Below are positions 38,164 to 40,619 of a stretch of DNA of 46,236 nt, piece after piece. Position 1 is the first letter of the stretch, and every line of letters begins with the position of its first letter. The translations under genes and the position numbers were made by a program. Origin of the DNA: Fidelibacterota bacterium (GTDB taxonomy: Bacteria; Fidelibacterota; UBA8477; JABMPR01); NCBI GenBank assembly GCA_021736185.1, contig JAIPGJ010000008.1, positions 1 through 46,236 on the forward strand, in the 5' to 3' direction. The notes below the pieces were generated by a model. That model did not search any database, was not told the origin of the DNA, and saw only the letters and a program-made list of their open reading frames with translations.

Positions 38164-38847
38164 ATGCACGCAAAAGCTGTTTCAAATGCTGGTCATCGAC
38201 AAAGGTTAAGAGATCGATTTTTCCAAAACGGGATTGAGTCCTTTCACGATTATGAGGTTCTGGAGCTCTTGCTCACGCTGGCCACGCCTCGCAAAGACAT
38301 GAAACCTCAAGCCAAAGAATTGATTCGACGATTTGGCAGTCTGGCCGGGGCGCTGGAAGCACCCACATCGGTTCTGCTGGATGTGAAGGGAATGGGCCAG
38401 TCCAATGTCTTTGCACTCAAGCTACCCCACGCCGTGGGTCGGAGATTTCTGTTCGAACAGACTCGAGGCAAAGATTATTTGCGGTCCAGCAAAACCGTGA
38501 AAGATTATCTTACGCACAATTTACGTGAAAGAAATCGTGAGATTTTTATGGTTATCTTTCTGGATGGTCAAAATCAGATTATCAAGATGGAGGAGCTATT
38601 TGCTGGCTCGCTTACCACCTCAGCCATTTATCCGCGTGAAGTTGTTCAGAAGGTTCTGGACTATGATGCGGCCAGTGTCATTCTAGTTCACAACCATCCC
38701 TCAGGCTCACTGACACCCTCAGGAAGTGATCGAGCAGTTACCAAAAAGCTGCAGGTTGCCCTGGCTTCCATTGATGTGGAAATTCTGGATCACCTTATTG
38801 TGGGAGGTAATGATTTCTTTTCATTCGCAGATCACAGGCTTTTATAG
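38164..38847 (+). CDS. radC: RadC family protein (JAMM/MPN domain)
   Basis: A 227-residue protein with an N-terminal helix-hairpin-helix-like part (about 15-85, with VLDVKGMGQSNVFALKL-type pattern) and a C-terminal JAMM metal-binding domain. The metal motif is complete: upstream Glu in KMEELFAGS, His176-Asn-His178-Pro, Ser and Asp in TPSGSD. RadC was once linked to DNA repair; its true role is not settled. GGAG lies before the ATG. The next gene is a collinear copy of the JAMM domain fused to a lipoprotein signal. Confidence 0.96.
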   Translation: MHAKAVSNAGHRQRLRDRFFQNGIESFHDYEVLELLLTLATPRKDMKPQAKELIRRFGSLAGALEAPTSVLLDVKGMGQSNVFALKLPHAVGRRFLFEQTRGKDYLRSSKTVKDYLTHNLRERNREIFMVIFLDGQNQIIKMEELFAGSLTTSAIYPREVVQKVLDYDAASVILVHNHPSGSLTPSGSDRAVTKKLQVALASIDVEILDHLIVGGNDFFSFADHRLL

Positions 38848-39025: not shown

Positions 39026-39061
39026 TTGACTAGCATATATTATGATATATATTGTCATAAT
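39026..39061 (+). promoter_or_regulatory. Promoter with overlapping inverted repeat before the RadC-like lipoprotein gene
   Basis: TTGACT (39026-39031), a 16-base spacer and TATATT (39048-39053) make a good sigma70-like promoter, 35 bases before the start codon. ATTATGA (39039-39045) and TCATAAT (39055-39061) form a perfect inverted repeat around the -10, so a bound protein would block the promoter. The gene therefore appears to be transcribed independently of radC. Confidence 0.5.
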
Positions 39062-39087: not shown

Positions 39088-39648
39088 TTGAAACACATAT
39101 ACTTATTACTATTGGTGGCTGGATTATGGTCATGCAGCGCGCCACAGAGTACGGCTCCAAAAACCGCCACCCACTTCCAGCATTCCAGCAGAAGAGCTGA
39201 CTATGGTAAATACATTGTCAGCGAAAACCACGTGACAGGCAGTCGCAAAATGTTTGTTCAACCAGGCGGGATAAACTGCTTAAACTCAAGTAGTGCCGTA
39301 TCTACTTATCTTGGAAAGAATATTCACGAAAAAAATCGCGATGCAGTTCTCATTATTTTTCTTGATAGTAAAAACATGGTTATAAAAATGGTTGAGTTAG
39401 AACCAGAATTTCTAGCAACACCGGCGTTGTGCACTTCCATGGTGACGCAGGAGGCTACAGATGTCCGTGCCACTTCAGCCATTATAGTACAATGTCTACC
39501 CACCAGATCATCAACACCCTACAATAATGATCGGGAAATTTCAAAAAACTTAAAGTCGGCACTCGCCTCAATCAATGTGGGGTTGCTTGACTACCTCATA
39601 TTGGGGCGTAACAAATGTTTTTCCTTTGCCGACAATAATCTGTTATAA
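39088..39648 (+). CDS. Lipoprotein derived from RadC, metal site lost
   Basis: A 186-residue protein with a TTG start. Residues 1-16 form a lipoprotein signal ending in Leu-Trp-Ser-Cys16. From about residue 48 to the end it aligns without gaps to residues of the RadC just upstream; I count 56 identities in the last 120 positions by hand. Shared stretches include IFLD, IKM.EL, ALASI.V and FSFAD at the end. The JAMM histidines are gone: His-Asn-His-Pro of RadC is Gln135-Cys-Leu-Pro138, and the Ser is Tyr, while the Asp remains. It is probably an envelope pseudoenzyme made by local duplication; decay is the alternative. A diheme cytochrome gene follows after 17 bases. Confidence 0.8.
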   Translation: MKHIYLLLLVAGLWSCSAPQSTAPKTATHFQHSSRRADYGKYIVSENHVTGSRKMFVQPGGINCLNSSSAVSTYLGKNIHEKNRDAVLIIFLDSKNMVIKMVELEPEFLATPALCTSMVTQEATDVRATSAIIVQCLPTRSSTPYNNDREISKNLKSALASINVGLLDYLILGRNKCFSFADNNLL

Positions 39649-39665
39649 AAAAAGGATCAATCATT

Positions 39666-40619
39666 ATGATAAAAAACATATTCATACTCAGTCTTATTCT
39701 AAGCCTATTATCCTGTAGCATTCTATTGCCTATTAAGGTTGGAGATGCCGATGACCTCGTCATTAAAGCCACACCTGAGCGGCTGGAACGCGGTGAATAC
39801 CTGGTGGAGCATGTTGCTGGCTGTATGGATTGCCATAGCCAACGTGACTGGTCCCGGTATGCAGGTCCGGTTATTGAAGAGACTCGCGGAGCTGGAGGTG
39901 AGGCTTTTACTGAGGAGATGGGCGTCCCTGGAACCATCTATACACCCAATATTACCCCAGCAGCATTGAAATCCTGGACAGACGGTGAAATTGTCAGAGC
40001 CATAACCAGCGGGGTAAGTCGAGATGGGACACCCCTCTTCCCCATTATGCCTTATCCGAACTATTCACACATGAGTCAGGAAGACATCTATAGTATCGTA
40101 GCCTATCTCAGAACCCTGGATCCCATCGAAAATGAAATCCCTAAGCGAAAATTGAATTTCCCTGTGAGCCTGATTGTTCGTACCATTCCCAGGGAAGCAG
40201 ATTTTGGAGTATTACCGTATGCTACTGATTCTATTGCCTATGGGAAGTATATGATAACAGCTGCTGGATGTGCTGACTGCCATACGCAAATTGATGGGAA
40301 GGGCAAACCACTGGAAGGAATGGACTACGCAGGTGGTTTCACAATGGGCCTTCCATCTGGGGGTAATGTCAGTTCGTCTAACATAACACCCCACGAAACC
40401 GGGATCAAAACCTGGACCCGCGAAGGCTTTATTGCACGCTTTAAAGCGCTGAATAATGAAGCAACCAAAAACATTCCACTCCAGGAAGACCAGATTAATA
40501 CAATAATGCCCTGGCTCTATTATGCAAGCATGAAGACAGAAGATTTAGGCGCTATTTACGATTATTTAAGAAGTATTCCTGCTGTGGATAATACGGTAAT
40601 CAAATATCCTGAACAATAA
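39666..40619 (+). CDS. Diheme cytochrome c, lipoprotein
   Basis: A 317-residue exported electron carrier. The signal ends in a lipobox-like Leu-Leu-Ser-Cys17. Two class I-type cytochrome c domains each carry a CxxCH heme site: Cys53-Met-Asp-Cys56-His57 and Cys202-Ala-Asp-Cys205-His206. Possible Met ligands lie in the PIMPYPNYSHM and TIMPWLYYASM regions, which occur at equal places in the two domains. The domains resemble the cytochrome subunits of alcohol or aldehyde dehydrogenases. AAGGA precedes the ATG. It converges with the acyltransferase gene nine bases downstream and is probably cotranscribed with the RadC-like lipoprotein. Confidence 0.93.
   Translation: MIKNIFILSLILSLLSCSILLPIKVGDADDLVIKATPERLERGEYLVEHVAGCMDCHSQRDWSRYAGPVIEETRGAGGEAFTEEMGVPGTIYTPNITPAALKSWTDGEIVRAITSGVSRDGTPLFPIMPYPNYSHMSQEDIYSIVAYLRTLDPIENEIPKRKLNFPVSLIVRTIPREADFGVLPYATDSIAYGKYMITAAGCADCHTQIDGKGKPLEGMDYAGGFTMGLPSGGNVSSSNITPHETGIKTWTREGFIARFKALNNEATKNIPLQEDQINTIMPWLYYASMKTEDLGAIYDYLRSIPAVDNTVIKYPEQ

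Follow-up and report, generated by a model that had tools for sequence, protein, structure and literature searches.

The window analysed here, a stretch of 46,236 nucleotides, carries a radC gene followed on the same strand by the gene of a RadC-derived lipoprotein and by that of a diheme cytochrome c. The features of this locus, with comparisons drawn from the seven orthologues described below, are the following:

38164 to 38847, forward strand: radC, the parent gene of the duplicate, 227 aa, with an intact JAMM motif (HNHPSG...TPSGSD), identified by Pfam, NCBIfam and tree
38428 to 38439, forward strand: radC codons for His-Ala-Val-Gly (residues 89-92), the inferred donor breakpoint, where the homology of the lipoprotein begins
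39026 to 39057, forward strand: conserved promoter-like site, with -35 TTGACT, a spacer of 16 and -10 TATATT (39026-39053), and a dyad TGA-N9-TCA (39043-39057) over the -10
39088 to 39648, forward strand: RadC-derived lipoprotein gene, 186 aa, TTG start; signal 1-16, linker 17-47, RadC-homologous region 48-186
39088 to 39240, forward strand: predicted signal peptide, Cys16 (codon 39133-39135) and linker, for which the 5' end of the cytochrome gene is the probable source, with the junction HVTG at 39229-39240
39277 to 39279, forward strand: Cys64, invariant in the seven lipoproteins and Cys in 0/36 RadC sequences compared
39490 to 39537, forward strand: former JAMM loop, HNHPSGSLTPSGSDRA in RadC and QCLPTRSSTPYNNDRE in the lipoprotein, from the comparison with 36 RadC sequences; pN/pS 0.14
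39616 to 39618, forward strand: Cys177, invariant in the seven lipoproteins, where most RadC have Phe or Tyr
39666 to 40619, forward strand: diheme cytochrome c lipoprotein (by sequence), 317 aa, with two CxxCH motifs (Pfam Cytochrom_C), 17 nt past the stop codon of the RadC-derived gene

The radC product matched PF04002 (E 1.8e-42) and UPF0758_N in Pfam and scored above the cut-offs of both TIGR00608 and NF000642 in NCBIfam. To our knowledge, RadC is widespread and has no agreed function. In the downstream lipoprotein, PF04002 covered residues 66-184 (E 1.3e-18), and the domain was found in 7/7 lipoproteins with a best E of 1.7e-27. The protein nevertheless stayed below both NCBIfam RadC cut-offs (67.9 vs 180 bits and 58.6 vs 133.85 bits): the full-length model, which spans the N-terminal domain and JAB, was matched at positions 89-218 alone. 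Aligned to the adjacent RadC without gaps, the lipoprotein has 56 identities over the last 120 aligned positions, exactly the count given in the first-pass annotation of this DNA, and 57/123 over the domain. The match begins at RadC His89, equivalent to lipoprotein residue 48 (HAVGRR-LFEQ-GK vs HVAGSRNLFVQPDGK); therefore, only about the first 88 residues of RadC have been replaced, and residues ~89-227 are present behind a linker of ~30 aa and the lipoprotein signal. The earlier statement that a lipobox signal replaces the N-terminal part of RadC stands for the signal, but has to be amended for the boundary, as the RadC match starts earlier than had been assumed.

Structure prediction, proposed at the outset as a check, likewise returned a RadC fold. 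The AlphaFold2 model, built from 36 sequences (two lipoproteins, two RadC and 32 RadC domains of viral contigs), reached a mean pLDDT of 78.5, mostly above 84 within the domain, with low values for the linker. Its best Foldseek match was RadC of Chlorobium tepidum (2qlc; TM 0.86 on the target, rmsd 2.0), followed by weak matches to 5cw3 and 5cw4 (E 0.02-0.03). As modelled, the lipoprotein has thus kept the fold of RadC. Its N-terminus, on the other hand, is of the lipoprotein type (KHIYLLLLVAGLWSC). The opening residues, MKHIYLLLLVAGLWSC, look like a lipoprotein signal in which Cys16 is the predicted lipidated residue, and this cysteine is invariant in 7/7 orthologues. A positive n-region, a hydrophobic stretch and a lipobox [LFI]-x-[SN]-C at Cys16 recur in every one of them, including the early-branching G015 with its non-canonical ITNC. 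The proposed export by a lipobox signal can therefore be predicted for all seven orthologues, and we infer export and lipidation at Cys16.

Homologues were searched for in 60 relatives and then in 245 genomes of the phylum. Full orthologues were present in seven of the 19 genomes searched of the window's genus (Ca. Neomarinimicrobiota), a genus of uncultured marine bacteria. No lipoprotein orthologue was recognised in the 226 other phylum genomes searched; by alignment range and frame length, the remaining matches of the phylum search correspond to RadC proteins of the ordinary or the short kind. Besides, a peptide-pattern scan of one genome per species across 84,980 species, which reaches close relatives only, returned Candidatus Neomarinimicrobiota isolate BS150m-G71 (G012), a Black Sea 150 m assembly, as the sole orthologue. 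All seven orthologues have radC on one side and a diheme cytochrome c gene on the other, and the flanks are conserved. As the locus recurs in seven genomes within 10 kb of conserved surroundings, an assembly artefact was ruled out.

The JAMM motif takes the form E..HxH-x7-S-x2-D (PMC300881), and its five positions (E, H, H, S, D) were invariant in 36/36 phylum RadC sequences compared. In the seven lipoproteins, the same positions hold D, Q, L or Q, Y and D, which leaves the final Asp as the sole JAMM residue kept. The His-Asn-His of RadC is Gln-Cys-Leu in the window lipoprotein; G015 has QNQ and the remaining six lipoproteins QCL, which suggests, given the early branching of G015, a path from HNH via QNQ to QCL. 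Replacement of both JAMM histidines and erasure of the metal site, first noted for the window copy, are thereby borne out in 7/7 orthologues by residue comparison with the 36 RadC sequences. While E, H, H and S were replaced in all seven, core columns (A, D, I, S, D) were retained, and the replaced catalytic positions are themselves fixed among the lipoproteins. The G..A.YPR segment has mostly lost its RadC residues. At the positions matching lipoprotein residues 64 and 177, none of the 36 RadC sequences compared had a cysteine. Both residues (49 and 162 of the mature protein) occupy strand positions of the AlphaFold2 model, and a Cys64-Cys177 disulfide is possible.

Relative to the window copy, the lipoprotein orthologues are 46-64% identical, and RadC 90-93%. 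One rival reading is a functionless tandem duplicate of radC in decay, its frame open by chance. The lipoprotein does evolve faster than RadC (dN 0.11-0.54 vs 0.02-0.14), its catalytic residues are gone, and it was lost repeatedly within the genus, all of which would agree with decay. However, all seven frames are full-length and free of stops and frameshifts, even though dS ranges from 0.8 to >2. In eight pairs with dS 0.8-1.5 (Nei-Gojobori), dN/dS was 0.11-0.21, well below 1 and with tight intervals (bootstrap upper 95% limits 0.18-0.33), the remaining lipoprotein pairs being saturated at synonymous sites; for comparison, RadC gave 0.02-0.08 and the cytochrome 0.04-0.11. Pooled pN/pS was 0.14 in the former metal loop (residues 134-150), 0.23 in the RadC-homologous region, 0.41 in the linker and 0.44 in the signal. 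As pN/pS is lowest at residues 134-150, constraint is strongest where the metal site was erased, albeit over only 17 residues. The fixed replacements at the catalytic positions and the conserved promoter equally speak against decay, which we regard as a most improbable reading; its neutral form is rejected by the rates and the seven intact frames. With dN/dS at 0.11-0.21 and constraint at its highest in the former active-site loop, the lipoprotein is not a decaying duplicate. Looking, as had been set beforehand, for a lack of intact homologues and for neutral rates, we found seven intact orthologues and the low ratios given above, so that the reading of the first-pass annotation was not refuted. 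With catalytic residues gone in 7/7 and the frame under purifying selection, the lipoprotein is a pseudoenzyme, as the first-pass annotation had supposed, and it is maintained by selection.

As to its origin, the seven lipoproteins form one clade (100/100) in a tree of JAB domains, nested within the chromosomal RadC of the genus, whose internal nodes are weakly supported. The lipoprotein gene arose once, by duplication of the chromosomal radC next to it; the supposed duplication of the RadC domain thus finds support in seven orthologues and in their grouping with chromosomal radC. The carriers fall into one subclade of a concatenated flanking-gene tree, and one gain with joint loss of the lipoprotein and cytochrome genes in four genomes (G010, G011, G009 and G013) fits the distribution. 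The branching order of the lipoproteins agrees with the flanking-gene tree, so that vertical descent is likely. Many genomes of the genus also contain several short RadC-like genes (~150-185 aa, e.g. L073-L081), with HNH intact and probably on mobile elements; two of these short genes carry an in-frame TAA (G010:C135 and G004:C26). An origin from such mobile-element genes was ruled out, for the tree sets the lipoproteins apart from them. A viral or plasmid source was likewise dismissed: there was no relative in viral contigs, a viral search with conserved RadC peptides of the genus found nothing, and plasmid and phage matches were distant (24-32% identity among the matches listed) and mostly ordinary RadC.

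The N-terminal part of the lipoprotein resembles that of the neighbouring cytochrome. Both N-termini have an equal distance to the lipid Cys (CSLFIPL and CSLVLPI in G015) and, in most genomes, share R-x3-G-[KE]-Y-[IL]-x-E-(x2)-HVAG. Profile-profile comparison gave E 6.6e-8 and 3.2e-9. Since signals resemble each other by composition, the comparison was redone on the part after the Cys only, where the score was 14.7 vs 2.3 +- 1.7 for shuffles, with 0/200 as high; with both the signal and the shared HVAG removed, it was 12.2 vs 6.3 +- 1.6, with 2/300 as high. When the lipoprotein N-terminus was searched against seven whole genomes, the best non-self match was the neighbouring cytochrome (E 0.033, 44/47 positions). 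In the reciprocal search with the cytochrome N-terminus, the lipoprotein came fourth among non-self matches, through the signal peptide alone (E 0.42). Similarity at the DNA level that would demonstrate a tandem duplication or chimera was not detectable, the sites being saturated. This last point, together with the weak reciprocal search and the compositional likeness of signal peptides, would agree with a signal taken from another lipoprotein gene, which would leave the rest of our explanation unchanged. Against such a donor count the similarity that survives removal of signal and HVAG, the rank of the neighbour's N-terminus in seven whole genomes, and a chimera geometry that requires one event only. 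Another donor is a serious alternative to which we give somewhat less than an even chance; probably, the signal peptide and linker derive from the cytochrome gene itself.

We lean, with modest confidence, towards a model in which one tandem duplication joined the 5' part of the cytochrome gene to the 3' part of radC and thereby gave rise to the lipoprotein gene. In the ancestor, the cytochrome gene would already have stood directly behind radC. Breaks within radC at HAVG and within the cytochrome gene at HVAG would yield the product order radC - [cyt 5'::radC 3'] - cyt, as observed, and this one duplication would have supplied signal, anchor, promoter and stop codon in a single step. If the model is true, both parent genes still flank the daughter, which would make this an unusually readable case of bacterial gene birth, with signal peptide, anchor and promoter gained in one rearrangement.

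The presumed promoter of the lipoprotein gene, proposed earlier from the window alone, corresponds to a promoter-like site at 39026-39053 that is conserved in seven genomes. TTGACA-16/17-TATATT with the dyad TGA-N9-TCA over the -10 was kept in 7/7 carriers. The pattern TTGAYN{12,13}TGANNTATATTNTCA occurred exactly once in each carrier genome (7/7), always at the lipoprotein locus, and was absent from the three non-carrier genomes searched. Having been written from the seven sites, the pattern matches them by construction; the information lies in its lack of matches elsewhere. In its 7-1-7 geometry, the dyad is like a Fur box, and two Fur-family genes are present. Yet the genes near other such boxes, among them one resembling PEP carboxykinase, form no recognisable iron or peroxide set, and Fur-type regulation was not retained as an explanation. 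A perfect or one-off TGATAATTATTATCA palindrome lies at -115 to -249 of the start of a second, distantly homologous diheme cytochrome gene in six genomes of the genus (L055 1222-2208 (G012:C25), L050, L051, L053, L054 and L056). With one mismatch, it also overlaps the annotated start region of an ATP-dependent PEP carboxykinase-like gene in two genomes (L148 and L153, ~1501).

The diheme cytochrome c gene reported downstream in the first-pass annotation follows the lipoprotein gene in 7/7 carriers. Between the last sense codon of the lipoprotein gene and the cytochrome start lie 73 nt in G015 and 13-20 nt in the other six genomes. In the rest of the genus, the two genes are absent as a pair, and the flanks are intact. 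Besides, no second close homologue of the cytochrome occurs in the carrier genomes. A link between the two genes is thus supported, although their joint absence could also stem from single deletions of adjacent genes. A gene more closely related to the window cytochrome (421 bits) occurs in a 63% complete genome (G007:C119; L066 2755-3693) without a RadC lipoprotein; its neighbours are genes of other kinds, a small cytochrome among them. In G013, where the pair is absent, a GIY-YIG nuclease-like ORF (L040 2817-3197) lies between radC and an acyltransferase gene.

Exported by Sec and lipidated at Cys16, the lipoprotein might reside at the periplasmic face of a membrane and there bind or scaffold the diheme cytochrome as a partner without catalytic activity; contact could be made via the remodelled former active-site loop, with Cys64-Cys177 perhaps forming a stabilising disulfide. 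We regard this partnership as plausible, if somewhat short of probable. An independent periplasmic protein, concerned with ligand, metal or heme binding or with stress, and co-transcribed with the cytochrome but not touching it, would be compatible with the co-loss of neighbours by one deletion; on the other side, the pair is unsplit across seven carriers and four inferred losses, and the carriers have no other close homologue of the cytochrome. To us, this independent role appears unlikely, though well within consideration. Alternatively, the ORF might act as a leader or translational-coupling ORF for expression of the cytochrome, the protein itself being minor. The short spacing in six genomes and a sole conserved promoter upstream of the lipoprotein gene would suit such a role, but it is the amino acid sequence that is under selection, above all in the former active-site loop, and the predicted fold is retained, which makes a leader improbable. 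The preferred reading, the cytochrome partner, offers one diheme cytochrome as a directly testable candidate. Its conjunction with the chimeric birth, i.e. a protein born in one step that became the dedicated partner of the same cytochrome and reused its former active site as a binding surface, is more doubtful and should be read as a possibility. The broader interpretation, an exported and membrane-anchored RadC JAB-domain pseudoenzyme kept by selection, is our best explanation overall and, on balance, a probable one. It would mean that a RadC relative devoid of its metal site, and by its sequence outside the cytosol, is nonetheless selected, so that the fold can have a use of its own.

No exported RadC domain or RadC pseudoenzyme was described in a limited literature search that had most subscription journals outside its scope, which is weak evidence of absence; within these bounds, the earlier remark that no such system had been described still holds. 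With the RadC/UPF0758 family (PF04002 and UPF0758_N; TIGR00608; 2QLC), the lipoprotein has in common the JAB fold, ~140 homologous residues and the C-terminal end. Unlike this family, it lacks the N-terminal helical domain and the JAMM residues, has extra invariant cysteines, is linked to a cytochrome c and, judging by its signal, would be exported. The downstream protein is related to cytochrome subunits of membrane-bound sugar/alcohol dehydrogenases (8hdd_B, 7w2j_C, 8gy2_B; best 8hdd_B, E 5.5e-28). Those subunits comprise ~440-490 residues and have a dehydrogenase partner, whereas the window cytochrome has 317 residues, a lipoprotein signal and no dehydrogenase gene alongside. A parallel to the proposed partnership is offered by the inactive MPN- partners of JAMM/MPN+ metalloproteases (e.g. 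CfKIAA0157, 5cw3), in which a JAB/MPN fold without metal ligands is kept as a partner, as we propose here. These are cytosolic scaffolds of eukaryotic deubiquitinases, while the lipoprotein is plainly RadC in sequence. Since inactive JAB/MPN partners are known from cytosolic eukaryotic complexes, the principle is known; the family, the location and the linkage are new.
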